DNA of 34,037 nucleotides from Candidatus Endomicrobiellum incisitermitis (lineage in GTDB: Bacteria > Elusimicrobiota > Endomicrobiia > Endomicrobiales > Endomicrobiaceae): NCBI GenBank assembly GCA_031275795.1, contig JAISOG010000034.1, positions 1 through 34,037 on the forward strand, in the 5' to 3' direction. A model generated the notes under the pieces. That model was not told where the DNA came from and did no database searches. It saw only the letters and a program-made list of their open reading frames with translations. The number at the start of each line of letters is the position of its first letter. Within the stretch, counting starts at the first letter, position 1. Positions 6,433 to 32,934 of this stretch are shown in pieces. The translations under genes and the position numbers were made by a program.

Positions 6433-9400
6433 ATGCTTGATAATCAATCTCAAAAAAGCTTGAGTATTAAATTTGTTATTAATGGACAATATGTAAGTGT
6501 AAGAGAAATTGGGGTTGGTGGTTTTGGTGTTGTATGGCAAGTATATGACTTTAGTTTAAAAAACTATGCTGCTTGCAAAGAACTTTTAAGTCATTTTTCT
6601 GAATTGAAGTTTGTTGAGATGTTTTACAAAGAGGCGTTAATTGCCAAAAATATTGTACATGCAAACATTGTAAGGGTAGAACATTTTTGGAAAGGCGATA
6701 ACGGCTCTTTTTATATTTTAATGGACCATGTCAATGGTACAGATCTTGAAAGTCTTATAAAAAGATGCAATGAATACCAAATAAAAATACCGTGGGAATT
6801 TTCTATTGTTATTTGTATGAGTATTCTTAGAGCAATAGATTATATAAATCGTGTTGCTATAGATCCTATTACAAATAAACCGTATGGTATAGTTTACCGT
6901 GATATTTCTCCCGGGAATGTATTACTTTCTTTTGAAGGTAACATTAAGTTAAGTGATTTTGGTATTGCAAAAACTGCAGACGATCTAAATACTAATCTAA
7001 AAGAATCAATTTTAACTGGCAAATATTCTTACATGTCTCCTGAACAAATAAAAGGATCTGAAGATATAGACCATAGGTCTGATATATTCTCTACAGCTGT
7101 TGTTTTGTATGAAATGCTTACAGGTAAGCAGCTTTTTTCTGGTAGTATTTCTGAGGTGACATCTTGTGTGTTAAATAGAGAGTTCAACGGCACTCTTTTA
7201 GATGGGTTAGACTTACCTACTGAAATTGGAGAAATTCTTTCGAAAGCTCTTCAAATAGACAAAACTGTACGCTATGAAAGAGCTATTGAAATGTACAGGG
7301 ATTTAAGACGAATTTTAAAAGGTATAGGTGAAGAGGATATTATTTCAGATTTTTCATCTTTTATTTTAAAAATAATGGAAAAAGAGTTTAATGATTCTGT
7401 TACTCTTTCAAACTTTGTTAAAACGATTGATATGAATATTGTAAGAAATGATCCCTCTGTCACTAAGATTAATACTACAGATTTTGTTGCAGGCCAAACA
7501 AATGTAGGAACTAGAAGTCCAGATGCTAAACAAGTTGATAGTGAAAATAATAAAAATGGGCAAAAAAAGTATTCACAACCGCAACCACGGGTTGAATCGA
7601 AAGGAAAAACTATTTTTGAGGAAGTTGATGATTGGTTTAAGAAGAAAATAGTAAATTTAAAAGGCATTTTAATAAAAGTCTTAATAGGTATTTTAGTTTT
7701 ACTTTTTGCCTGTTTGATTAGTGACATTTTTTTACAAATTACACCGATAGGTGAATATATTTATAAAAGGATTAACCGTTCAGATGTTATAATCACTACA
7801 ATTCCAGAAGATGCAGTTGTTTCGCTAAAAACAAAAGAGGGCGATACCATTATTGAAAACGCAAGTTCAAGAAAGCCTATTGCTTTAAGAAAAATTCGTC
7901 CAGGGTCTTATGTTGTTAGTGCTATCAAGCCAGGCTTTAGTCCAATACAACGAGTTATTACGGTAGAAAACAAATCTCATAAGGAGCAAGAAAAAATAGA
8001 ACTTGTATTTGATTTTGATTTGAACGTTATTTCATATCCTAACAACGCAGATGTCTATGTAGATGGTAATAAAGTTGGGAACGCTCCGTGCAAGGTACAG
8101 CTTTCTGCAGGTGGAGCACATGCTGTAAGGCTTTCATTGCCAGGCTTTTCTGATCTTGGTTCTGACGCAAAGGAATTTAAAGAAGGCCAATGTAACATAG
8201 ACTTAACTAAATCCAGCCAGGAAGAAATTTTTGCTGGAGTAGATAAAGAGTTTTGGGATATATTGTTACAAAGTCAGGGAAATGATCAGTTGTTTAGTAT
8301 AAGTGGCCATTTTTATAAAAAGATTACTTTTGACACGAATCCGGAAAATATGACTTTACAAATATACGGCGAACCAAAACCTAGAGGTATTACGCCAGTT
8401 ATCGTGAGATTAAAAGAAGGTGATTACAAGATTGAAATTCTTGATATAAGTGGTAAATATTCTGAAGTTGTAGAAGAAATAAAAGTGTCTTCTTCTACTC
8501 AAGAACAACAAATTATTGATATGCGTAAGTTGGTTACGTTTAGAGTAAAAGCTAAAAATTCATCGGTGTTTTTTAAAGCAAAATTGCAGATAGAGCGTAA
8601 ATTACCAGAAGGCGATATTCGTATGCAATCTAGCAATATTGTTAAAAGTGATAGTCAAACAAAAGAAAGTGAAGTGTTGAAAGACAATAATTTATCTAAT
8701 CAAGAAATTAATGCTTCTAGTAATGTTGCAGTAAATGTGGAAAATGCTGATCATGGAGAAAGTTCTTATACATCTTCTACAAATGTAGTAAATAATGAGA
8801 ATTTTCAGCAGCCCATAGATTTGCAAACAGATGTAAATAAAAATAAAACTTTAAATGTAGAAAATCAAGTTGTTACTTCAACTGATAATATCCATTTACA
8901 AAATAGTTCTTCAACTTTAAATACAGAAAATGCGCAAGATCAGGTGGCTCAGAAAGTAGCAGAAGAATCAAGTGAAAATGAGTTAGATAGTGACACAGTA
9001 CATGATGTGAGAGAGATAAGTGCTAATAAGCCCCTTTCTTTATCTTTGCCTATTGGTATATATAAATTTACTTTTTTTGCAGAAGGATTTGAGCCTTTTG
9101 TTAAAGATGATGTAGATATTGAAAAAATAAATTCTATAAGTGTTGAGTTATCTACTGCAAAAATTCCTTTAAAACTAAAAATTTCATATATCAATAACAA
9201 TGGTAAAAGAGTACCTATTTATGGTGCTGCTGTTTGGGTTGACGGTGTAATGTTAGGTAAAACTAATCAAGAAGGGGATTGGAACTATAAATTTGCAAAA
9301 AGTAAAGTTGTAAAAGGGAAAATTATTGCTAAAGGATTTGTAACACAAAATTTTACTGTTTCTTTGACAAATGGTAATGCTAATGTTAACAAGATAACTT

Positions 9401-9639
9401 TAATTTCAAAGAAAGATTCTTTGCCTATTAATGAAAATATTGATGTTGTAAAAGACAGAGTAAAACAAGTTTCTAAGAGTAGACATAATAAACAATTAGA
9501 TAAGAAAGCAGCTGCAACAACTACTACAAAAGATGGTGAACGTACAGTAGTTTGTTCGTATTGTGGGTATGTTAATGTAATTCCAAAAGGTAGAAAGTTA
9601 AGATTTTGTTTAAATTGTGGTAAGCCTCTTAAATACTAA
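6433..9639 (+). CDS. Transmembrane Ser/Thr protein kinase with PEGA domains and C-terminal zinc ribbon
   Basis: 1068 residues. The N-terminal Hanks-type kinase (about 20-300) has the glycine loop GVGGFG (27-32), ATP-binding Lys49, catalytic D157 and N162 in YRDISPGN, and the DFG Asp175. The usual HRD-K is changed to YRD-S; Ser at the Lys position also occurs in other bacterial kinases. A membrane helix at about 410-434 is followed by two PEGA-type beta domains (about 450-518 and 526-594), a third similar unit (631-683), an Asn/Ser/Glu-rich low-complexity stretch (about 730-856) and a final beta domain (910-993). The end is a zinc ribbon, C1041-x2-C1044 and C1059-x2-C1062. Zinc ribbons normally sit in the cytoplasm, whereas one membrane helix would put this one outside. 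It leads the FHA/PP2C/response-regulator/PorV operon. ATG follows AAAGG. Confidence 0.9.
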   Translation: MLDNQSQKSLSIKFVINGQYVSVREIGVGGFGVVWQVYDFSLKNYAACKELLSHFSELKFVEMFYKEALIAKNIVHANIVRVEHFWKGDNGSFYILMDHVNGTDLESLIKRCNEYQIKIPWEFSIVICMSILRAIDYINRVAIDPITNKPYGIVYRDISPGNVLLSFEGNIKLSDFGIAKTADDLNTNLKESILTGKYSYMSPEQIKGSEDIDHRSDIFSTAVVLYEMLTGKQLFSGSISEVTSCVLNREFNGTLLDGLDLPTEIGEILSKALQIDKTVRYERAIEMYRDLRRILKGIGEEDIISDFSSFILKIMEKEFNDSVTLSNFVKTIDMNIVRNDPSVTKINTTDFVAGQTNVGTRSPDAKQVDSENNKNGQKKYSQPQPRVESKGKTIFEEVDDWFKKKIVNLKGILIKVLIGILVLLFACLISDIFLQITPIGEYIYKRINRSDVIITTIPEDAVVSLKTKEGDTIIENASSRKPIALRKIRPGSYVVSAIKPGFSPIQRVITVENKSHKEQEKIELVFDFDLNVISYPNNADVYVDGNKVGNAPCKVQLSAGGAHAVRLSLPGFSDLGSDAKEFKEGQCNIDLTKSSQEEIFAGVDKEFWDILLQSQGNDQLFSISGHFYKKITFDTNPENMTLQIYGEPKPRGITPVIVRLKEGDYKIEILDISGKYSEVVEEIKVSSSTQEQQIIDMRKLVTFRVKAKNSSVFFKAKLQIERKLPEGDIRMQSSNIVKSDSQTKESEVLKDNNLSNQEINASSNVAVNVENADHGESSYTSSTNVVNNENFQQPIDLQTDVNKNKTLNVENQVVTSTDNIHLQNSSSTLNTENAQDQVAQKVAEESSENELDSDTVHDVREISANKPLSLSLPIGIYKFTFFAEGFEPFVKDDVDIEKINSISVELSTAKIPLKLKISYINNNGKRVPIYGAAVWVDGVMLGKTNQEGDWNYKFAKSKVVKGKIIAKGFVTQNFTVSLTNGNANVNKITLISKKDSLPINENIDVVKDRVKQVSKSRHNKQLDKKAAATTTTKDGERTVVCSYCGYVNVIPKGRKLRFCLNCGKPLKY

Positions 9640-9674
9640 ATTAACAATAATGACTTGTTGCAAGGAGAAAGTTT

Positions 9675-11861
9675 ATGTCCTTGTTGCTGCTAAAGAAAAA
9701 AGAAGAAATTTTAAGTGAATATGTTTTAAAAAGAAAAGAAAAAATTTTTATTGGGAAGAAAAAAACAAATGATATTGTTATAAACGATTCATTGGTTTCA
9801 GATAATCATTGTACTCTAATTTTAAAAAATGACAAATACTATATTAAAGATCAAAACACAATATCAGGTACTAAAATTAATGGCAAAATTATTGTAGAAC
9901 AAGAGCTTCTTTATAATGGAGATACTATTAGTATAGGTACTTATACATTAGAGTATTGGCAAAAAAATTCTATTTCAGATAACAAGTATTATCTTTTAGG
10001 TGTTTATGGTAAATTTGAAGGTAAAAAGTACTTTGTAAAAAACGGTGATACGTTTATTGGTAGAGAACTTTTTACTCCAAAAGGAGGAATAGAGAATGAC
10101 ATAATATTAGAAAATGACAATACAGTTTCTAAGGGACATGCTGTAATTTCATTTAAAGATGGTAAATTTTTTGTGGAAGATACTGGTAGTACTGGAGGAG
10201 TTGCTGTAAATGGTTTAAAAATTGGGCAATTTGAAAGTTTTGCTATACAAAGTGGTGACGAAATATCTATTGGAAGGTCTATTTTTAGATTTGTAAATTC
10301 TAGCAATGAAGATTACTCCTTCCCACAAAAACAACAGATATTTTTGTTAAGAATTATAAAACCTTTATCACTTGCCATTACCATTTTAGTTACTTGTGCA
10401 TTTTTATTTTTTGCATTTATTTCAAACCAAAAACTTTCTGTTATGAAATCCTATGATGAAAAACTTACATTAGAATTAAATACAGCTTTTAAGAAAGCCA
10501 TGGTCTTAAAGTCGTCTCTAGAAGATTATCATAGAACCCCTACTCCAGCAATTGGAGACATTTTAAATAATGGCAATAATGCACTTATAGCTCTTACTGG
10601 TTCTGGTTTTTTATATGGTTGGGATTTAAGTACAGGGAAGGAATTGTGGAATCATATAGAAGTACTTAATTTAGATATTGGATCTCCAATGATTGCTGAT
10701 GTAAATAACGATGGAGTAAAAGATATAATTGTAGTGTCGGCCACTTCTATGCTTTATATTTATGATGGACAAACTGGGAATTTAATAAGAAAAGAAGTAA
10801 TAGGTGGGGAAATTGCTGGGCTTACACCGTTGATAGCTGATTTAACTGGTAATGGTAAGATGGATGTAGTTGTATGTTCTCAAGAGGGTACTGTTAGTTT
10901 TCTGTATAATGTAGGGCATGATAAAGAATATGAAAAGATTATAGAGTATGTTGAGGGTCCTTTATATGCAACGCCGGTTTTGTGTAATAATAAGAATGGT
11001 GTACCTATAGTTGTTGTTGCAAATAATAGAGGGAAAATTTACTTTATAAATGGTAAATCACGTGAAAAGAAAATGTTGGATTTACTAGAGAAAACAGGTA
11101 AAGAGCATTTTATTGTAGCTGCTCCAGCTGTTGGAGATATAACAAAAAATGCTATTTCAGATATCGTAGTGCAAACAAGTCATCCTCAATATGTTAGTGC
11201 AATTGATGTTACTAATTTAAATGTTTTATGGACTTTTTTAGTTGAACCTGCTCCGCCATTAAACTTGGAATATACTGCATCGCCTTTAATCTCTAATGGT
11301 GATGTATTTGTTGTTTCTGCTAATGGAAGTGTATACAATTTAAAAGGAAAAACAAATTATCCATCAGGAGAACTTTTGTCTAAACTGGATATTCCTGATG
11401 CAAAGAGAATAATATCTAGTCCATCCAAGTATGATTTTGACAAGGATGGATATGATGAATTTGTTGTTGGTACAGAAGATGGAAGGATAGTAGTTGTTAA
11501 AAATAATATTAAAAGACAAGAACTTGAAATTCTTGCTGAGATAAAAGCCAGTAATACTCCTATAACTTCATCTCCTTTAATTGCTGATGCTTTTGGTTCT
11601 GGTAAGCTAAATATCATATTTGCAAATGCGACTAATGCTTTACAAATCATAAATACAAATTCAAAAAGTCTAAAAAACTTTTGTCCATGGCCTATGTATT
11701 TAGCTGATCCTTCTCATACAGGCCAGGGGACTCCTCAATCTAAAATCAAGTATTATTTGATGTTTTACTCATCTGTCTTAATTTTTGTTTGTTTTGTGTT
11801 TTTTAAAATTTTTATATTAATAAGAAAAAAACTTAAAAGGGTTAAGGTTAAATTTTTGTGA
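9675..11861 (+). CDS. Double-FHA protein with membrane-anchored extracytoplasmic propeller
   Basis: 728 residues. Two FHA domains, which bind phosphothreonine, occupy about 22-95 and 113-212. The second keeps the GR and SKGH core; the first has GK and SDNH, so its phospho-binding may be weaker. A membrane helix (about 224-250) leads to a long repeat region (280-680) with FG-GAP/PQQ-like blades, marked by recurrent phrases such as DVNNDGVKDIIVV and DFDKDGYDEFVVG, which look like Ca-binding loops. A second helix (about 692-716) returns to a basic tail. The predicted topology is therefore FHA inside, propeller outside. It follows the kinase by 35 nt with AAGGAG before the ATG, and overlaps the phosphatase by 4 nt. 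It is the natural cytoplasmic reader of the kinase; the propeller ligand is unknown. Confidence 0.85.
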   Translation: MSLLLLKKKEEILSEYVLKRKEKIFIGKKKTNDIVINDSLVSDNHCTLILKNDKYYIKDQNTISGTKINGKIIVEQELLYNGDTISIGTYTLEYWQKNSISDNKYYLLGVYGKFEGKKYFVKNGDTFIGRELFTPKGGIENDIILENDNTVSKGHAVISFKDGKFFVEDTGSTGGVAVNGLKIGQFESFAIQSGDEISIGRSIFRFVNSSNEDYSFPQKQQIFLLRIIKPLSLAITILVTCAFLFFAFISNQKLSVMKSYDEKLTLELNTAFKKAMVLKSSLEDYHRTPTPAIGDILNNGNNALIALTGSGFLYGWDLSTGKELWNHIEVLNLDIGSPMIADVNNDGVKDIIVVSATSMLYIYDGQTGNLIRKEVIGGEIAGLTPLIADLTGNGKMDVVVCSQEGTVSFLYNVGHDKEYEKIIEYVEGPLYATPVLCNNKNGVPIVVVANNRGKIYFINGKSREKKMLDLLEKTGKEHFIVAAPAVGDITKNAISDIVVQTSHPQYVSAIDVTNLNVLWTFLVEPAPPLNLEYTASPLISNGDVFVVSANGSVYNLKGKTNYPSGELLSKLDIPDAKRIISSPSKYDFDKDGYDEFVVGTEDGRIVVVKNNIKRQELEILAEIKASNTPITSSPLIADAFGSGKLNIIFANATNALQIINTNSKSLKNFCPWPMYLADPSHTGQGTPQSKIKYYLMFYSSVLIFVCFVFFKIFILIRKKLKRVKVKFL

Positions 11862-13285
11862 AAGTTTCTTACTATGCTAAAACAGATATTGGACTTTTAC
11901 GAACAGAAAACCAAGATTCTTATGGCATAGGTGAAGATTTTTATGTAGTTTGTGATGGTATGGGTGGTGGTGTTGCTGGAGCGTTTGCTAGTCAATTAGC
12001 TGTTGAAGTTATTCTTAAGTCATATAAGACTATAAATGATGAACAGGTAAGAGACATTATTGGTGATGATCTTGCTAAAATAGGTAATGATATAAATAGT
12101 GCTATACCTATTGTAACGGTTATGCTTGCAAATAGAATGTTATATAATCTGACTATTAAATATAGAAAGCTTGCTGGTATGGGCACTACAGTTGTAATGT
12201 GTAAAGTTGATAGAGAGTACAATATATTGAATGTTTATCATGTAGGGGATAGTAGATTATATAGAATTAGAGAAGGAAACATAAAACTTCTCACGAAAGA
12301 TCATTCTAAAATAAACGATTTGTTAGATGGAGGGAAAATAGCAGAGTCAGATATAAAATTTGTAGAGAATCAAAGCATTATTACAAGAGCCTTAGGTATA
12401 GCTTCAAGTGTAAAAGTAGATTATCAGCAATATGATTATAAGCCTGGCGATTTTTATATTATGTGTAGTGATGGCTTAAATGGTGAAATTGATGACAATT
12501 CAATTAAAGATATAGTTAATAGAAATAGTGCAGGTTTAGCTTTTACTGTAAACGAGCTCATATCATCTGCAAACCATGCAGGTGGAAAAGATAACACTAC
12601 AGTTATTGTGTTTACAATAGATGATGACGGCCAGCCTGTTAAGTTGTCCAAAGATATTCAGAAGGATCCTTTGTCATTTAGTGTTGATGATTTAGAGAAA
12701 AATTTATACGAAGATAGGATTTTAAAGAAAATATCAAAGAAATTAACTGTAGAAATACCAAAAAATCTGATAAAAGAAAAAAAATTAGAAAATATTTACA
12801 TATACATATATGTAGTTGCTTTTATAACGTTGTTAACTTTTTTTGGATATTATTTCTTTGCTAAGAAAAATGAAAAGAAAATTTACAATGAAAAGTTAAA
12901 TGAAGTTTCCGGTATAATACTAAACATAAGACATTTAAAAAAGGATAAACTAAAAACTATTATGGAAGTAGATAATTACCATTATAGAAGGCAATTGTTG
13001 GAAGAGGCTAAAAGTTTTTACAAAAATTATTCTTTTAATTTTATTAATGCTATTGTCTTTATTGAAGAAAAGAAAGGGTATAACAAATTTATTGCTTTGT
13101 CAGGAAGTTATCCTATAAAGATTTATCTACCTGTTGGAGAATATAGAATGTTGTTAAAGTATCCAAGATATAGTTTAGTTGATAACAATCTCAATATTGT
13201 AAAGTATTTGGATTTATCAATAAGCTTAACTGGTGGACTAGAAGAAAAAGTAATTTTAATGGTTCCAAATAGTTTAGGAGAGTAA
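11858..13285 (+). CDS. Membrane-anchored PP2C-type Ser/Thr phosphatase
   Basis: 475 residues. The N-terminal domain is a PP2C/PPM metal-dependent phosphatase: ENQDSYG (17-23), DGMGG (33-37), GMGTTV, HVGDSR with D131, a CSDGLNGE block, and the final GGKDNTTV with its metal-binding Asp. It should reverse phosphorylation by the kinase encoded two genes upstream. Unlike the common soluble PrpC/Stp form it has a membrane helix at about 312-335 and a roughly 130-residue outer domain whose end (LSGSYPIKIYLPVGEYRML) recalls PEGA-type beta units. The start is GTG at 11858 in a GTGA overlap with the FHA gene, implying translational coupling. The response regulator begins 4 nt after the stop. Confidence 0.92.
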   Translation: MKVSYYAKTDIGLLRTENQDSYGIGEDFYVVCDGMGGGVAGAFASQLAVEVILKSYKTINDEQVRDIIGDDLAKIGNDINSAIPIVTVMLANRMLYNLTIKYRKLAGMGTTVVMCKVDREYNILNVYHVGDSRLYRIREGNIKLLTKDHSKINDLLDGGKIAESDIKFVENQSIITRALGIASSVKVDYQQYDYKPGDFYIMCSDGLNGEIDDNSIKDIVNRNSAGLAFTVNELISSANHAGGKDNTTVIVFTIDDDGQPVKLSKDIQKDPLSFSVDDLEKNLYEDRILKKISKKLTVEIPKNLIKEKKLENIYIYIYVVAFITLLTFFGYYFFAKKNEKKIYNEKLNEVSGIILNIRHLKKDKLKTIMEVDNYHYRRQLLEEAKSFYKNYSFNFINAIVFIEEKKGYNKFIALSGSYPIKIYLPVGEYRMLLKYPRYSLVDNNLNIVKYLDLSISLTGGLEEKVILMVPNSLGE

Positions 13286-13289
13286 ATTT

Positions 13290-13655
13290 ATGATTCAGAA
13301 TAAAATATTGGTTGTTGACGATGATGTAACATTTTTAGACTCTATAGATATGATTTTTTCTGCTAAAGGGTTTGAGGTTACAAAATTATTAGATCCAAAA
13401 AATATTTTTGATACATTAGAAGAAGCAAAACCAGATATAATTTTATTAGATGTAAGTTTTCCTGAAAATAGTGGTTTTGATGTCTTAAATAAATTAAAGA
13501 CTCATTGTAGATTTTCAAGTATTCCAGTTATTATGATAACAGCAGATGTGACAGTCCATATAGATAAAGCGTTTGCACAGGGTGCAGATGATTGTGTTTT
13601 TAAACCTTTAGCTGTTCAAGATATTATAAAAAGAGTGTCAAGGCTAATACAATGA
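13290..13655 (+). CDS. Single-domain response regulator (receiver only)
   Basis: 121 residues with a complete receiver domain and no output domain. The acidic pocket is D10-D12, the phosphoacceptor is D54 in ILLDVSFPEN, the switch Thr is T84 and the conserved Lys is K105 in FKPL. A stand-alone receiver acts by protein contact, like CheY or Spo0F. No histidine kinase lies in the window. Its place inside a Ser/Thr kinase-phosphatase operon (4 nt after PP2C, 4 nt overlap with the next gene) suggests cross-talk between the two phosphorylation systems, which is inference. Confidence 0.93.
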   Translation: MIQNKILVVDDDVTFLDSIDMIFSAKGFEVTKLLDPKNIFDTLEEAKPDIILLDVSFPENSGFDVLNKLKTHCRFSSIPVIMITADVTVHIDKAFAQGADDCVFKPLAVQDIIKRVSRLIQ

Positions 13656-15406
13656 AAAAAATATATACTGTGTTTTTAATATGTGTATTTCTAAACCCTA
13701 TTGATATTTTTGCAGGTAATAATATTTCTTCAGATAGAGTTTTTTTTCTAAATTATGATGCACAATCTTGCGCTATGGGAAACAGTATAGCTTCTTTTTC
13801 TAATAATTCATTTTCTTGTATAAATTCTCCTTCAACAAATTTTAACTTTTTATCTAAAAGAATGGATTTTTCTTTTGTTTCTTTGCTAAGTAATACATAT
13901 ACTGGAGCGTATGCTATAGCTGTGCCATTTTCTTTTGGAAATTTTACTTTGGCAGGTTCTTATAATAGGTACCCTTCTAAAACTATTTATGTTAACCAGG
14001 AAAATTATATAAAAGAGAACTTTGTAATGTATTTGAACTACGTATTATCTATTTTTAAGTCATATCCAGTTTATGACAATATTGGTGCTATTGGAATAAC
14101 AATTAAAGGTTGTAAATTAGATTTTAACGATATTTCAAAAGTTATATATTCTTGCGATTTTGGAGCACATTATAAACTTCATATGATAGATGATGGCTTT
14201 TTTGCTGTAATGACTGTTAAAAATATAGGAAATAATAAAATTAATTTGGAAGGTCAAAATTTAATAGAAAGTCTTGAAAATTTTGATTTTGCTTTGAGAT
14301 ATAATTTCAAAGGAATTTCTAATTTTGCACTTGTGGCAGACATGATTAAATTTTTTAATGATTCCAATATAGGTTATGCATGTGGGGCTGAAATATCTCC
14401 AATATATCCTGCAACATTTAAAATTGGATATACGGATTATAATAATGGTTTTTTAAAAGGTGTTACAACTGGTATTTTTTTGAATTTTGATTTATTTAAC
14501 ATAGGTTATGCTTTTTCAGGAATTAATAGTACCGAGGCAAAACATACTGTAAATATGGGCTTTATGTTTGGTGGTATAAGAGATATGAACAAAGCATACA
14601 AGTATTATTTAGGCGTTAATTTTATTAATGCAAAAGATGCCTATAACAAAAAAGATTTTATTAATGCTAAGCAAATGTTTGAAAATATTCTTGCCGTATA
14701 TCCAACCCATGAACCTTCTAAAAAATATTTGCAAAAAATTATTTATGAACTTGACGTACAAGAAAAAGCTTTAGAAGTTTCTGTAAATAAATTTTTACAC
14801 AAAGCGCAAAAAGAATATGAAAATAATAATTTAATTAAAGCAAGAATTTATTATAAAGAAGTTTTAGGTGTAGATACTGCTAACGCACAAGCATTAGAAG
14901 GAGTTGCTAAGATAGATAAAATATTAAAAGAGATAAGCATTGATGAAAATGCAAAAGCAAACGCCAAAAAAATTATATCTTTATGGCAAGAAGGTGTTAA
15001 ATTTTATAATGAGAAAAACTTTGTTTTTGCAAAAGAAAAATTTGAGGAAATTGTATCTATTGATTCTAAAAATCCAGGAGCAATAAAATATTTAAATCTT
15101 ATTACAACTCAATTGTCTAACATAACTGCAGTACAAGCTAAGGTAATTTTTGAGCAAGGAATGCGATATTATAACGAGAAAAACTATAAAGAAGCTGCAA
15201 AATATTTTAGTGCAGTATATGTTATAAATCCCAATATGGGCGAAGCAAAAAAATATTACATACTTTCTAAAAAAGCGTTAAAAGAAAAGTATGATGATAT
15301 AGATTTATTTAAAGATAAAAATTCTCTTGACTTTAGAGTAGAAAATAATCCGCATACTTCTAAAAACAAAAATATTATACAAAAGAATATTAAAAGAAAA
15401 CATTAA
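13652..15406 (+). CDS. PorV/UPF0164-like outer-membrane beta-barrel protein with C-terminal TPR domain
   Basis: 584 residues. A signal peptide (about 1-20, ending near IFAG) is followed by a region like the PorV/PorQ and UPF0164 barrels: an early CAMGNSIASFSNN motif that aligns with the family's GMG-A phrase, then alternating strands to about residue 310. From about 315 to 560 there are TPR-like helical repeats (AYNKKDFINAKQMFENIL; KFYNEKNFVFAKEKFEEIV; RYYNEKNYKEAAKYFSAVY). The tail is Lys/Asn rich. The start overlaps the response regulator stop (ATGA). The likely place is the outer membrane with TPRs in the periplasm, making it a candidate partner of the outer domains encoded upstream. The family call is moderate; the TPR call is firmer. 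Confidence 0.72.
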   Translation: MKKIYTVFLICVFLNPIDIFAGNNISSDRVFFLNYDAQSCAMGNSIASFSNNSFSCINSPSTNFNFLSKRMDFSFVSLLSNTYTGAYAIAVPFSFGNFTLAGSYNRYPSKTIYVNQENYIKENFVMYLNYVLSIFKSYPVYDNIGAIGITIKGCKLDFNDISKVIYSCDFGAHYKLHMIDDGFFAVMTVKNIGNNKINLEGQNLIESLENFDFALRYNFKGISNFALVADMIKFFNDSNIGYACGAEISPIYPATFKIGYTDYNNGFLKGVTTGIFLNFDLFNIGYAFSGINSTEAKHTVNMGFMFGGIRDMNKAYKYYLGVNFINAKDAYNKKDFINAKQMFENILAVYPTHEPSKKYLQKIIYELDVQEKALEVSVNKFLHKAQKEYENNNLIKARIYYKEVLGVDTANAQALEGVAKIDKILKEISIDENAKANAKKIISLWQEGVKFYNEKNFVFAKEKFEEIVSIDSKNPGAIKYLNLITTQLSNITAVQAKVIFEQGMRYYNEKNYKEAAKYFSAVYVINPNMGEAKKYYILSKKALKEKYDDIDLFKDKNSLDFRVENNPHTSKNKNIIQKNIKRKH

Positions 15407-28699: not shown

Positions 28700-28816
28700 T
28701 TGAGTACTCTAGATGTTTCTGACAATTTAAAAAAAGTAATTAGGGGTGCGAAGAATTGTGAAATTCAAAAAAAATCAATTTTTAAATGTGGTCAGTTTTG
28801 TTTTGAACAGTTCTAA
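28700..28816 (+). CDS. Possible 38-residue Cys-containing peptide before the ABC exporter pair
   Basis: TTG at 28700 has a good ribosome site, GGAAGGA at 28687-28693, 6 nt upstream. The frame reads STLDVSDNLKKVIRGAKN after the initiator and then a segment with Cys at positions 20, 30 and 34. Its last 71 nt overlap the ABC1 gene in another frame. The first half is amphipathic and leader-like. It might be a secreted peptide precursor, a leader peptide controlling the exporters, or an N-terminal piece of ABC1 separated by a frameshift. The overlapped second half may be only a frame shadow. No known precursor family is recognised. Confidence 0.25.
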   Translation: MSTLDVSDNLKKVIRGAKNCEIQKKSIFKCGQFCFEQF

Positions 28817-30548
28817 GTCACTAGTCTTTGCTGTATTTTTTCAAAAATTAATTGTAGGGCTCATCCCTGCTTTTATGGTTATATCAATTTCAAAATTTAT
28901 AGATACGGTTCTTAGCGTTTTTAACAATAAGTTAGATATAAAAAATGTTTATCCGGCACTGTTTTCAATTATTGTTTTATTGTTTTTTTCGTTGTTATCT
29001 GAAAAAATAATTTACTTTGCAAATATTAAAATCACAAACAAATTAAGAATAAATTTATCGAGTTTAATATTCAAAAAATATGCTAGTCTAGAGTATAAAC
29101 ATCTGGAAGCTCCAGAAACGACAGATTTAATTTTGCGATGTACAATGGCGCCCGAAACTAATTTAATGACTACATTTGAAAATATTTGTAATTTTTTTTC
29201 TTTAGTTTTAACAGTCTTAAGTGTGGTCGTTATCGTTTTGTCTTATGTTTGGTGGGTAGGCATTTTATTAATTGTTTTTTGTATCCCATTGTTTAGAATT
29301 GCACTTAAAAGTGGCAAAGCAAATTATCAGGCCAATGTAGAAGTAACTAACTATAATAAAAAATATTTATATCTGTCTGAGGTACTAACAGGAAGGAACA
29401 GTGTAGAAGAAAGATATCTTTTTGGTTTTGAAGAACTTTTAAATTCCAAGTGGAAAGATAATTTTGAGAAAGCAAGAAAAATTTTGTTTATAACTGAATT
29501 TAAATGGTTTGCAAAAATGAAATCGGGAAGCTTAATAATGTCTGTTATAGCATTAATTACTACTTTAACGGCACTTCCGGCAGTATATGACGGTAAAATT
29601 TCTATTGGAATATTCATTGCAATGGTAAGTACAGTTTATGCGTTAGTCAATAGAATGGCGTTAGAATTTACTACTCTAGTTGATAACATTACAAAAGGAT
29701 TATACTACACAAGCGATTTACAAGAATTTTTAAATTTGAGCGAAGATGAAGGTGCTATGGTCAAACCTAGTGCTAAACCTTTACAATTAGAAAAGATAGA
29801 ATTTAAAGATGTTAGTTTTAAATATCCAAACACAGATAAATATGTTTTAAAAAATTTTTCACTTACTATCGAAAATGGTAAGCATTATGCGATTGTTGGT
29901 ATAAATGGTGCAGGAAAAACAACAATGGTGAAGTTATTAACAGGTCTTTACAAAGAATTTGAAGGACAAATATTAATAAATCAAAAAAACATATCAGAAT
30001 ATACTCCTGCAGAATTAAAATCGCTTTGCTCTATCGCTTACCAAGATTTTTCAAGGTATGAGACTACTTTAAATAAAAATATCGCCATTGGAAATATAAA
30101 TAAAATGATAGCTGAAAATGCCGAAGAAGATTTTAATAAAGCTGTTGAATTATTAGAATTAAATGAATTAATAGATACTCTTCCACAAAAATCTGATACA
30201 CACCTTGGAAAAATAAAAAAAGACGGAGTAGACCTCTCGGGCGGACAATGGCAAAAGATAGCAATTGCAAGACTTTTTAATAATCCTGGTGCGCTTAAAA
30301 TACTTGATGAACCTACGGCAGCTTTGGATCCTATTACTGAAAGTAAACTTTATGAAAAATTTGAAAAAGTTTTTAAAGGCAAAACAACTTTATTTATTAG
30401 TCACAGATTAGGTTCAACAAAACTTGCAAATGTAATTTTCGTAATCAACGATGGTAAAGTACAAGAAAAAGGAAATCATGAAGAGCTTATGAATTTGAAC
30501 GGCACTTATTCTCTGCTTTATAAAAGTCAAAGGAGCTGGTACGACTGA
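28746..30548 (+). CDS. ABC exporter half-transporter 1 (fused membrane and ATPase domains)
   Basis: 600 residues from GTG 28746 (GTG 28758 is also possible). The first 320 residues hold about six membrane helices of exporter type with no N-terminal C39 peptidase domain. The ATPase has Walker A GINGAGKTT (385-393), signature LSGGQWQK (from 497), Walker B ILDEP and the switch His in FISHRLG. The motor appears intact. The stop TGA shares one base with the ATG of the next ABC gene (TGATG), so the two should form a heterodimer made in equal amounts. The substrate is unknown; with a PPTase downstream, a peptide or carrier-made metabolite is more likely than a simple drug, but that is inference. Confidence 0.92.
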   Translation: MRRIVKFKKNQFLNVVSFVLNSSKSLVFAVFFQKLIVGLIPAFMVISISKFIDTVLSVFNNKLDIKNVYPALFSIIVLLFFSLLSEKIIYFANIKITNKLRINLSSLIFKKYASLEYKHLEAPETTDLILRCTMAPETNLMTTFENICNFFSLVLTVLSVVVIVLSYVWWVGILLIVFCIPLFRIALKSGKANYQANVEVTNYNKKYLYLSEVLTGRNSVEERYLFGFEELLNSKWKDNFEKARKILFITEFKWFAKMKSGSLIMSVIALITTLTALPAVYDGKISIGIFIAMVSTVYALVNRMALEFTTLVDNITKGLYYTSDLQEFLNLSEDEGAMVKPSAKPLQLEKIEFKDVSFKYPNTDKYVLKNFSLTIENGKHYAIVGINGAGKTTMVKLLTGLYKEFEGQILINQKNISEYTPAELKSLCSIAYQDFSRYETTLNKNIAIGNINKMIAENAEEDFNKAVELLELNELIDTLPQKSDTHLGKIKKDGVDLSGGQWQKIAIARLFNNPGALKILDEPTAALDPITESKLYEKFEKVFKGKTTLFISHRLGSTKLANVIFVINDGKVQEKGNHEELMNLNGTYSLLYKSQRSWYD

Positions 30549-32329
30549 TGAGCAATTTTCAAAAAAAAGTTAGTGTGAAAAATTTTGTCACATCAATACT
30601 CAGGGTTTTAAAAATGGCTTTTAAAGCAGGTCCTTTATATATATGTATTAACAATGTAATTGCTATTATTCATGGCCTATTGTACGGACTTATAACGCTT
30701 GCAATGCAATTATTTTTTGAATCTGTTATTAGATGTATTCAAAATAAAAATGGCTTAAATGAAGCGATTTTTATGGCATTTGTTCTCTTTGCAGTGGTTA
30801 TACTCGCCCACACAGTAAATGGTTTAAATAACTTTATGGGAACAAGTTATTTTAAAAAAGTAGTAGGTGCTTTAAATCAGAAAATAAATATTAAGTCTTC
30901 AAGAATCGCTCCTATTTCTTATGAAAACCCGAGCTTGCTTGATGATATTAATAAAGCCACTCTAGGAGCAAATAACAGTTTAGGGCTATTATTTACTGTC
31001 ACTACTATCTTTTCTTACTACACTCCGTATTTCTTATTTATGTTTATTTATCTTTATAGACTTAACCCCTTTTTGTCTTTATCTCTTGTAGTCATTTTCA
31101 TTCCGGTTGCTCTTTCGCAATTTTTAAGAAATCTAATATTTTCTAAGTTAGAAGATGAGATCGCACCTATAAGGCGTGAAACAAATTATTATAAAACAAC
31201 TCTAGCTGAAAAGGAAACTCGAACTTTAGGTGCTTTTAGCTTTTTTGAAAACTTGTATATTTCTTCTTTAAATTTATTTAATAAAATTACATGGAAAGTA
31301 GAAAAAAAATCAGGGCTTATTGAACTAATAATGCAAATTATTACACTTGCAGGATATTTGGGCGTTTTATATATATTTGTGTCAACACTCTTGCAAGGCA
31401 AAATTTCTGTGGGTGCTTTTGCAGCAATATTTTTTTCAATGAATATTATGTTTAACACAATGGATACAATAATTTCTAAACACATAGCTAATTTGACACG
31501 AAACATGGGGACAATAAACAATTTTTTGAATTTTTTAGATATGCCTGAAATTGTAGATTCACAAAAAGCTCAAGATGAGAATTTGGACATAAATTTAAAA
31601 AACGTTTGTTTTAGTTATCCAAACAGCAAAAAAAATGTATTAAATGATATTAATTTAAATATAGAATCTGGAAAAACAATCGCTATAGTGGGTGAAAATG
31701 GTTCCGGGAAAACTACCCTTGTTAAACTTATTTTGGGATTATATACACCAACTTCAGGAAATGTAACAATAGGCGGTTTAGATACAAAAAACGTTTCTTT
31801 AAAAAGTTTGTTCAAAAAGTCATCAGCTGTTTTTCAAAACTTTCAAAAATATAAAATGACTTTGTTGGAAAATATTATGATCAGCGAAATAAACTCTGAT
31901 GATAGCGAAAAAATGAATGATTCTCTAAAAAAAGCAGGACTTTCTTTAGATGAAAAAGTATTTCCTCAAAATTATGACACCATGCTTTCGAGAGAATTTG
32001 ATGGTGTAGAATTATCAGGAGGACAATGGCAGAGAGTGGCAATTGCTAGGGGATTATACAGGACGCATGATTTAATTATTCTCGATGAACCCACGGCAGC
32101 TATAGATCCGCTTGAAGAAGCTAATTTATATAAAAAATTTGCAGAGATTTCAAAAGTAAAAACAGCAGTGATAGTTACTCATAGAATTGGTTCGGCAAGA
32201 ATTGCAGACAAAATTGTAGTTATGGATAAAGGGCAAATTTGTGAAATAGGTACACACGATGATCTAATTGATAATTGCGGGAAGTACAGTAATATGTTTT
32301 TAGCACAATCTAAATGGTACACAAAGTGA
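30548..32329 (+). CDS. ABC exporter half-transporter 2 (fused membrane and ATPase domains)
   Basis: 593 residues, built like the preceding half-transporter but clearly divergent from it, as expected for heterodimer partners rather than a recent duplication. An N-terminal exporter membrane domain of about 320 residues is followed by an ATPase with Walker A GENGSGKTT, signature LSGGQWQRVAIARG, Walker B LIILDEPTAAIDP and the switch His in VTHRIG. Both nucleotide sites thus look competent, unlike exporters with one dead site. It starts on the TGATG overlap and its end overlaps the PPTase frame, giving a tight three-gene unit. Confidence 0.92.
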   Translation: MSNFQKKVSVKNFVTSILRVLKMAFKAGPLYICINNVIAIIHGLLYGLITLAMQLFFESVIRCIQNKNGLNEAIFMAFVLFAVVILAHTVNGLNNFMGTSYFKKVVGALNQKINIKSSRIAPISYENPSLLDDINKATLGANNSLGLLFTVTTIFSYYTPYFLFMFIYLYRLNPFLSLSLVVIFIPVALSQFLRNLIFSKLEDEIAPIRRETNYYKTTLAEKETRTLGAFSFFENLYISSLNLFNKITWKVEKKSGLIELIMQIITLAGYLGVLYIFVSTLLQGKISVGAFAAIFFSMNIMFNTMDTIISKHIANLTRNMGTINNFLNFLDMPEIVDSQKAQDENLDINLKNVCFSYPNSKKNVLNDINLNIESGKTIAIVGENGSGKTTLVKLILGLYTPTSGNVTIGGLDTKNVSLKSLFKKSSAVFQNFQKYKMTLLENIMISEINSDDSEKMNDSLKKAGLSLDEKVFPQNYDTMLSREFDGVELSGGQWQRVAIARGLYRTHDLIILDEPTAAIDPLEEANLYKKFAEISKVKTAVIVTHRIGSARIADKIVVMDKGQICEIGTHDDLIDNCGKYSNMFLAQSKWYTK

Positions 32330-32934
32330 GGAGTTTACACATTATAGAGTTGTTCTATGTAAAAACGAATGCGAGTGAGTTTAACAGCAGAATAGAAAAA
32401 GCTAGAACAAATAGTTTATATGCCGAACTATTGGTTAGGTATTTAGCATGTAAGATTTTAAAGATTCCAAATAATCAAGTGATTTTTAAAAGAAATTTTT
32501 TTGGTAAACCTTATCTTATTAACTATGATAGTTTTTTCTTTAATGTTTCTCACAGTGAGGATTTTGTGATTTGCGTTGTCTCATCTAATGAGGTAGGAGC
32601 TGACATTGAGAAAATAAAATCTAAACCATTAGAAATCACAAAAAAACTTTATAATCTGCCAAATGAAAACGAAAGCTTAGATAATTTTTATAATAGGTGG
32701 GTTAAGGAAGAAAGTTATATAAAATATCTGGGCAAAAATATGAAGTTTTCAGCAAAAGCTGTTACTTCTTTAAAACAGGATGTTTGCTTTAAGAGGTATG
32801 ACATTCATCCTGGTTATAAAATTTCAGTATGTTCAAAAGAAAATATATTTTCAGAAAATATTTTTTCAGTAGATAAAAAAATTCTCGATGATTTTTTTAA
32901 TCTTAATAGAGGAGATATCAATGGAAAACTTTAA
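32314..32934 (+). CDS. 4'-phosphopantetheinyl transferase (Sfp/AcpT superfamily)
   Basis: 206 residues if begun at ATG 32314. The enzyme moves phosphopantetheine from CoA to a Ser of carrier proteins. Signature residues are in GADIEKIKSK (G95, D97, E99) and WVKEESYIKYLGK (W129, K131, E132, K137). The length suggests a single-domain Sfp-like form rather than AcpS. The start is open. GTG 32326 overlaps the ABC2 stop as GTGA, while an ATT at 32341 sits 7 nt after a GAGGAG site and would give IELFYVK, close to the usual family start. No carrier protein, NRPS or PKS is in the window, so the substrate may be the fatty-acid ACP or a distant synthase. Operon with the ABC pair. Confidence 0.9.
   Translation: MVHKVRSLHIIELFYVKTNASEFNSRIEKARTNSLYAELLVRYLACKILKIPNNQVIFKRNFFGKPYLINYDSFFFNVSHSEDFVICVVSSNEVGADIEKIKSKPLEITKKLYNLPNENESLDNFYNRWVKEESYIKYLGKNMKFSAKAVTSLKQDVCFKRYDIHPGYKISVCSKENIFSENIFSVDKKILDDFFNLNRGDINGKL

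Follow-up and report, generated by a model that had tools for sequence, protein, structure and literature searches.

The mycobacterial PknB/PstP system is built on PASTA kinases and comes with FHA proteins. Its transmembrane kinase and cognate PP2C phosphatase are co-transcribed (PMC6213207), and in Mycobacterium tuberculosis PknD, a membrane-bound signalling protein, the sensor is an extracellular beta-propeller (PMC6213207). A kinase, a PP2C and an FHA reader are encoded with a secretion apparatus in the T6SS, which PpkA, PppA and Fha control post-translationally (PMC3953482). The type IX secretion system (T9SS), reported from Bacteroidetes only (PMC4793230), is controlled by PorXY-SigP, with the relay from the surface provided by PorA, a CTD protein (PMC7712824); its receiver PorX binds the core subunit PorL (PMC5005315).

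We analyzed a 34,037-nucleotide stretch (the window) from the 1.24 Mb genome of a termite-gut symbiont (G000) and focused on five genes at positions 6433-15406: a Ser/Thr kinase, an FHA protein, a PP2C, a lone receiver and a PorV-TPR protein. In contrast to the T6SS pathway, the reader and eraser here are membrane proteins with ectodomains, no T6SS component was seen in the operon, and the partners are a PorV/SprA-type outer-membrane system and a receiver domain. Compared with PknB/PstP, the locus has PEGA rather than PASTA units, a propeller on the FHA protein, an outer-membrane protein and no cell-wall synthases; compared with PknD, the propeller belongs to the FHA reader and not to the kinase. 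SprA-like, PorV-fold and sorting-domain proteins are features the genome shares with T9SS-bearing organisms – though SprA and PorV are remote homologues that fall below cut-offs, and the proposed regulator is a Ser/Thr kinase.

The sequence-only reading knew of no described system with this exact make-up. A writer/reader/eraser trio in one locus is already known from the T6SS and mycobacteria; a kinase-FHA-PP2C set paired with PorV/SprA was not found described in the literature searched. Nor did that literature describe T9SS-like export in Elusimicrobiota, or include any relevant paper linking SprA, PorV or type IX secretion to Endomicrobia or Elusimicrobia. The main text of an mBio 2024 Endomicrobia genome study does not mention 'secretion', 'two-component' or 'signal transduction'.

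Gene layout and protein domains

All five open reading frames are intact, and ORF calls confirmed the previously reported spacings of 35, -4, 4 and -4 nt. Coordinates and supporting evidence are given in Table 1.

Table 1. Features of the five-gene locus (window coordinates).
Feature	Position	Strand	Basis or remark
Hanks-type Ser/Thr kinase with PEGA ectodomain, 1068 aa	6433..9639	+	Pkinase 1e-34; PEGA 4.6e-24, 3 stretches
Kinase domain	6490..7275	+	Gly loop, Lys (CKELL), YRD catalytic loop, DFG, SPE
Kinase single TM helix, aa 411-429	7663..7719	+	Hydropathy 2.95
Kinase PEGA-containing ectodomain, approximate limits	7765..8592	+	Domain search
Kinase C-terminal CxxC...CxxC Zn ribbon	9547..9636	+	Extracytoplasmic by topology; kept in relatives
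FHA-FHA-TM-propeller-TM protein, 728 aa	9675..11861	+	Domain search; hydropathy (two TM)
FHA1, canonical Arg replaced (K/S/N)	9747..9938	+	Alignment of relatives
FHA2, Arg130/Ser152/His155/Asn179 invariant	10053..10274	+	Alignment of relatives
FG-GAP/PQQ-type beta-propeller, approximate, between two TM helices	10512..11744	+	Domain search; hydropathy
PP2C/Stp1-type phosphatase, TM + ectodomain, 475 aa	11858..13285	+	NCBIfam Stp1 E 4e-60
Phosphatase PEGA-like ectodomain	12905..13270	+	AF2 model; hhalign to kinase PEGA1
Stand-alone receiver domain, 121 aa, phosphoacceptor Asp present	13290..13655	+	Response_reg E 5.5e-22
PorV-type outer-membrane barrel + C-terminal TPR, 584 aa, signal peptide	13652..15406	+	AF2 pLDDT 81; Foldseek

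The kinase carries the Hanks-type motifs, which are conserved in relatives with YRD in place of HRD, and accounts for the only Pkinase match in the genome. Its kinase domain was best matched by PASTA-kinase and other general STK models, but the PASTA-kinase model NF033483 scored 166 bits against a cut-off of 450 and aligned to the kinase domain only. The ectodomain yielded PEGA and no PASTA repeats, and we therefore rejected membership of the PASTA/PknB group. The Zn ribbon, placed after the ectodomain, had been absent from the sequence-only reading.

No second FHA protein is encoded in the genome. FHA1 lacks the canonical phosphate-binding arginine, while FHA2 has it in 23/23 relatives along with the other phosphate-site residues (Ser, His and Asn); FHA2 is thus the likely phospho-Thr reader. 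Neither this difference nor the second transmembrane helix at the protein's C terminus had been noted before. TagH and similar models scored below cut-off and from the FHA domain alone. Because these were FHA-domain cross-matches only, and no T6SS genes were seen within or beside the operon, either in the window or in relatives, membership of the T6SS was rejected.

The phosphatase gene has a GTG start and overlaps the FHA gene by 4 nt. Its product, with one transmembrane helix by hydropathy, contains the invariant motifs DGMGG, GDSR, SDGL and GG.DN, consistent with Stp1/PstP-type metal binding, and scored 203 against the NCBIfam Stp1 cut-off of 230. PstP was the closest fold to its AF2 model (1txo, E 6e-22), and PppA (6jkv) was among the fold matches. 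A genome-wide PF00481 count gave zero despite this real PP2C and was discarded; NF033484, used instead, identified it as the sole Stp1-type match in the genome. Profile-profile alignment by hhalign matched the phosphatase ectodomain to the first PEGA unit of the kinase (P 1e-5), at least as well as one PEGA unit matches another, which bears out its description as PEGA-like. Topology and domain matches thus support the earlier claim that writer, reader and eraser each have an extracytoplasmic domain.

The receiver is one of four in the genome. It stands alone here and is a tandem double receiver in f3, f4 and f6; a tie to a DNA-binding output was rejected on the basis of these arrangements. Consistent with the proposed PorV identity of the fifth protein, the best PDB matches of its AF2 model in Foldseek were the T9SS translocon chains 8gl6_F (E 7e-9) and 6h3i_F (E 1e-8), with a TM-score to target of 0.60-0.64, and the model shows a FadL-like barrel as in T9SS PorV, the mark of the PorV/PorQ family. 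At the sequence level, Pfam gave no PorV identity, the window protein did not reach PorV_fam, a PDB sequence search returned TPR proteins only, and the G136 ortholog matched PorV_fam with E 6e-11, below the curated cut-off.

The envelope-division genes ftsX-EnvC-ctpA lie downstream of the operon. Scanning the AT-rich region for promoters yielded as many candidates as shuffled sequences did, and the result was not used.

Conservation and gene loss in relatives

Twenty-seven relatives, all Elusimicrobiota and most of them Endomicrobia, have the FHA-PP2C-receiver-PorV order intact, an identity of order that excludes a chance arrangement, and the 4-nt FHA/PP2C overlap is kept in 31/33 intact relatives. 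Gene layout and conservation show computationally that this is an operon. Because the genes are not scattered in close relatives, the claim of a single operon and single functional unit is strongly supported. Comparisons with G060 and G050 gave dN/dS values of 0.14-0.38 for the FHA, PP2C, receiver and PorV genes and 0.09-0.17 for the kinase domain, indicating that the operon is under purifying selection in the window's lineage.

Most relatives have four more genes between the kinase and FHA genes, encoding a fibre-like protein, a type IX sorting-domain protein, a PorV/PorQ protein and a coiled-coil protein. The sorting-domain protein scored above the TIGR04183 and Por_Secre_tail cut-offs, and the fibre-like protein weakly matched the Bdello mosaic adhesive trimer N-domain (E 2.9e-5). 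A kinase ectodomain-CTD-PorV-coiled coil-FHA-PP2C-receiver arrangement was also found in G006, which lies outside the order and class. These comparisons indicate that the fuller operon has nine genes, four of which the window's clade has lost to arrive at its reduced five-gene form. The earlier statement that the five genes complete the set therefore does not hold.

Broken operon copies occur in G062, G082, G118 and G170, and many members of the window organism's genus have no copy. The kinase of this genus may be undergoing decay, since in G029 its HRD motif has lost the arginine (YCD) and in G050 its ORF is split. The operon forms a series – nine genes in gut and aquatic relatives, five in the intracellular-symbiont genus, then pseudogenes and complete loss – that is useful for asking which surface control an endosymbiont still needs.

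T9SS-like components elsewhere in the genome

The genome encodes a SprA-like 1769-aa ORF (SprA HMM TIGR04189, E 3.6e-40, 137 bits against a cut-off of 200). While phmmer with one SprA-like sequence found no match, a ten-sequence family profile searched against the PDB matched SprA alone (E 1e-30). With four proteins above the TIGR04183 sorting-domain cut-off, the genome has both a SprA-type translocon, by homology only, and sorting-domain cargo. GldM searches gave no match in 10 genomes, and the control was likewise silent.

A second PorV-TPR gene directly adjoins the SprA-like ORF, and a third lies 3' of a response regulator. Relatives have HK-RR-(RR-GGDEF)-sigma factor-PorV-TPR-CTD at this third locus, resembling PorXY-SigP with PorA (PMC7712824). 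PorV-TPR genes are thus paired with phospho-signalling twice, given these HK/RR genes. SprA-like genes also occur in many genomes of the phylum that lack the kinase operon, so the operon is not required for SprA-type export.

Proposed function and alternatives

We give about even odds to the operon being a trans-envelope Ser/Thr phosphorylation switch, one by which events in the periplasm or at the outer membrane are coupled to T9SS-like surface-protein export. Export is the probable target because the operon in relatives also carries surface-protein and export genes. The sequence-only reading had suggested such a link; it is strengthened by the SprA-like, sorting-domain and PorV genes in the genome, by the PorV and sorting-domain genes inside relatives' operons and by the PorV-TPR gene adjoining a response regulator at a second locus, and the coupling itself is still one that we infer. 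In this mechanism, the kinase PEGA ectodomain, the FHA-protein propeller and the phosphatase PEGA-like ectodomain would meet in the periplasm, probably together with the outer-membrane PorV protein through its TPR domain. The balance of kinase and phosphatase activity would follow from the status of export or the surface layer; FHA2 would bind phospho-Thr on the kinase or another partner to assemble a signalling complex, which the phosphatase would reset, and the lone receiver would feed in phosphorelay input. The output would adjust use of PorV-TPR with SprA. Ectodomain contacts, phospho-Thr target, direction of control and receiver role are all putative. Most relatives have cargo-type genes (fibre-like and sorting-domain) and a dedicated PorV within the same operon; the window's clade has lost all of these, and its core presumably acts on cargo from other loci.

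Several observations run against an export switch, among them the SprA-like genes of genomes that lack the operon and the signs of kinase decay in the genus. The genome analyzed here no longer has the operon's sorting-domain and extra PorV genes, its SprA-like and PorV matches both fall under curated cut-offs, and PEGA ectodomains, being of general occurrence, would suit other envelope cues too. The operon could instead encode a general envelope or cell-wall status kinase with a PknB/PASTA-like role, the trio sensing periplasmic or peptidoglycan state and regulating envelope growth and PorV-TPR being an outer-membrane partner and not an export component. The PstP-like phosphatase fold, the best matches of the kinase domain, the downstream division genes and the retention of the core after cargo-gene loss all fit such a role. 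We nevertheless regard it as unlikely, as PASTA units are missing, the operon of most relatives holds surface/export genes and not peptidoglycan synthases, and the PorV-TPR paralogs are encoded alongside SprA and sorting-domain proteins.

Less probable still is that the operon builds and polices one surface fibre or adhesin layer, with the trio as an assembly checkpoint and the window's clade holding a narrowed remnant. The weak adhesin match of the fibre-like protein, the presence of its gene in most relatives' operons and gene losses that track intracellular life are consistent with this, but purifying selection still acts on the core genes in the absence of the fibre genes. That the locus is a decaying relict without present function in this endosymbiont lineage is very improbable: the broken and missing copies and the damaged G029 and G050 kinases would suit it, yet the five window ORFs are intact, dN/dS is well below 1 and the FHA gene's value is comparable to those of housekeeping neighbours.

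Extending the export switch to the phylum, we tentatively propose, at somewhat short of even probability, that T9SS-like export in Elusimicrobiota uses a SprA-like translocon, several PorV-TPR shuttles and sorting-domain cargo, and that individual PorV-TPR modules are under their own phospho-signalling, one under an HK/RR/sigma set and one under a Ser/Thr set. The latter would be a membrane-spanning kinase-FHA-PP2C-receiver set, with writer, reader and eraser all sensing the periplasm. If true, this would be a T9SS-like system controlled by Ser/Thr phosphorylation, and SprA/PorV-type export would have its own, independent version of the kinase/FHA/phosphatase logic of the T6SS. Since the genome has a sole kinase and a sole FHA protein, its phosphoproteome should be small and directly testable.

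Domain architecture of the operon

On re-examination, the five open reading frames (window 6433-15406, forward strand) and their spacings of 35, -4, 4 and -4 nt exactly matched the sequence-only reading, and domain searches bore out the gene set as a Hanks kinase with a PEGA ectodomain, an FHA-FHA protein with an FG-GAP/PQQ propeller, a PP2C phosphatase, a receiver (REC) and a TPR protein. Hydropathy bore out a membrane helix in each of the first three proteins (kinase, one; FHA protein, two; PP2C, one) and identified a signal peptide in the last. The two helices of the FHA protein put its basic C-terminal tail back on the cytoplasmic side; the kinase's single helix would place a conserved Zn ribbon, which follows the ectodomain, outside the cytoplasm. 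FHA1 has lost its phosphate-binding arginine in every relative examined and FHA2 keeps the full phosphate-binding site in all 23 relatives – making FHA2 the likely phospho-Thr reader. Genome-wide, the operon encodes the only Pkinase, FHA and Stp1-type matches, together with one of four receivers.

Two tentative assignments gained support. The PEGA-like unit claimed for the phosphatase resembles the kinase's first PEGA unit in a profile comparison (P 1e-5), and in an AF2 model the TM helix is followed by a distinct domain rich in beta structure. PorV identity, originally a guess with no Pfam match, is backed by an AF2 model (mean pLDDT 81) in which a beta barrel precedes TPR helices and whose two best PDB matches are T9SS translocon chain F (8gl6, E 7e-9; 6h3i, E 1e-8).

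The window comprises an entire contig (G000:C9) of a 1.24-Mb genome in 49 contigs. Because its FHA protein is 92% identical to that of the nearest named relative, Candidatus Endomicrobiellum roisinitermitis, the organism is an Endomicrobiellum-type member of Elusimicrobiota. Members of this genus are described as living inside termite gut flagellates as endosymbionts (PMC11257099).

Ancestral association with surface and export genes

A profile search (E 1e-30 or better) identified the FHA-propeller protein in 43 of 248 sampled phylum genomes, distributed across four families of one order (f1 and three more) and, alone outside that order and its class, genome G006. The claim of a single operon held up in a gene-order search across Elusimicrobiota, which found FHA-PP2C-REC-PorV-TPR unbroken in 27 relatives; the 4-nt FHA/PP2C overlap is retained in 31 of 33 intact relatives. 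In most relatives the kinase and FHA genes are separated by about 4-7 kb containing four genes, with the full set detected in 23. All four are absent, by loss, from the window species, G029, G060 and G050, and were lost separately in G005 (two changes on the label tree), so a kinase directly beside FHA is the derived state. Sequence, structure prediction and conservation define an operon that encodes a kinase, a reader and an eraser in the membrane, a receiver, and a PorV-TPR of the outer membrane, and that was ancestrally accompanied by surface and export genes.

The G006 order is PEGA ectodomain-CTD (C-terminal sorting-type domain) protein-PorV-coiled coil-FHA-propeller-PP2C-REC-REC-FHA/GAF/cyclase, with the kinase domain truncated by the contig end. 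The FHA-GAF-adenylate/guanylate cyclase gene following this operon suggests cyclic-nucleotide output in that lineage.

Features and their locations
Feature	Location	Remark
Kinase C-terminal Zn ribbon, CxxC...CxxC	window 9547-9636	after ectodomain; conserved
Fibre-like secreted protein		between kinase and FHA in relatives; weak match to mosaic adhesive trimer N-domain
Protein with C-terminal FlgD-Ig/type IX sorting domain		between kinase and FHA in relatives; above Por_Secre_tail and TIGR04183 cut-offs
PorV/PorQ protein		between kinase and FHA in relatives
Secreted coiled-coil protein		between kinase and FHA in relatives
SprA-like ORF and adjoining second PorV-TPR	L072 3156-10223	G000:C15
PorV-TPR two-component locus	L073 2258-5508; L132 1796-8198; L133, L134, L136, L139	
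FHA-GAF-cyclase gene	L036 655-2265	G006
Anomalous kinases of G029 and G050	L042 7463-10678; L044 4624-7760	
Adjacent ABC exporter genes and the short gene after them	window 28746-32934	

Type IX-like export genes and a proposed role

The TXSScan survey reported T9SS as restricted to Bacteroidetes (PMC4793230), yet 209 of 248 genomes of this phylum carry SprA-like genes. The window's own genome encodes a 1769-aa ORF resembling SprA, the T9SS translocon (TIGR04189 137 bits, E 3.6e-40, under the 200-bit cut-off), and a profile built from ten SprA-like phylum proteins, run against every sequence in the PDB, hit SprA and nothing else (E 1e-30). Directly adjoining this ORF is a second PorV-TPR, homologous to the window copy (E 1e-14), which overlaps a gene with a CHU_C/CTD-like tail. 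Four proteins of the genome score above the cut-off for the type A sorting domain of T9SS, one a subtilase beside a PorV gene. The SprA-like and PorV assignments represent remote homology.

A third PorV-TPR (718 aa, G000:C3) lies between an OmpR-type response regulator (RR) and a short CTD protein – a reduced version of a locus that in relatives reads histidine kinase-(RR-GGDEF)-RR-sigma-70 factor-PorV-TPR-CTD protein. PorV-TPR proteins are thus paired with phospho-signalling at two loci: with a two-component set here and with the Ser/Thr set in the operon.

Among genus members listed, all seven with an intact FHA gene carry a SprA-like gene and no SprA-negative member has an intact operon – though this co-occurrence is confounded by shared ancestry and genome reduction. 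We propose a periplasmic sensing step in which the ectodomains read the state of export or of the surface, probably via the TPR domain of PorV-TPR. FHA2 binding to phospho-Thr would assemble a complex that PP2C resets, the receiver would contribute two-component input, and the output would be tuning of T9SS-like export.

Kinase-PP2C-FHA modules are already known. PASTA kinases are as a rule transmembrane and co-transcribed with PP2C (PMC6213207), and the T6SS threonine phosphorylation pathway provides an established precedent for the kinase half of the proposal (PMC3953482). For the export half, PorXY-SigP controls T9SS, with a surface CTD protein relaying to the sensor kinase (PMC7712824), and a receiver protein binds the core subunit PorL (PMC5005315). 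A search of the open-access journal literature found no paper linking a Ser/Thr kinase and FHA to type IX secretion, nor one on SprA/PorV in Elusimicrobiota. The putative T9SS-like coupling is the more novel reading.

Constraint and loss within the genus

Low dN/dS against G060 and G050 shows that the operon is constrained where intact (FHA, 0.14-0.19; PP2C, 0.18-0.23; PorV-TPR, 0.21-0.26; kinase domain, 0.09-0.17), with the kinase ectodomain evolving faster (0.34-0.38). Four genus members (G062, G082, G118 and G170) carry a broken operon, and in many others none was detected; the broken copies mark a loss gradient among flagellate symbionts. These copies (L038, L039, L040, L041) adjoin intact scpAB and, in three, glgA. 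In the G029 kinase YCD replaces the HRD-type Arg-Asp, and the G050 kinase ORF is split within the ectodomain; these anomalies suggest erosion in the genus, with assembly error as an alternative for the split ORF. Elsewhere in the window, two adjacent ABC exporter genes are followed by a short phosphopantetheinyl transferase-like gene.
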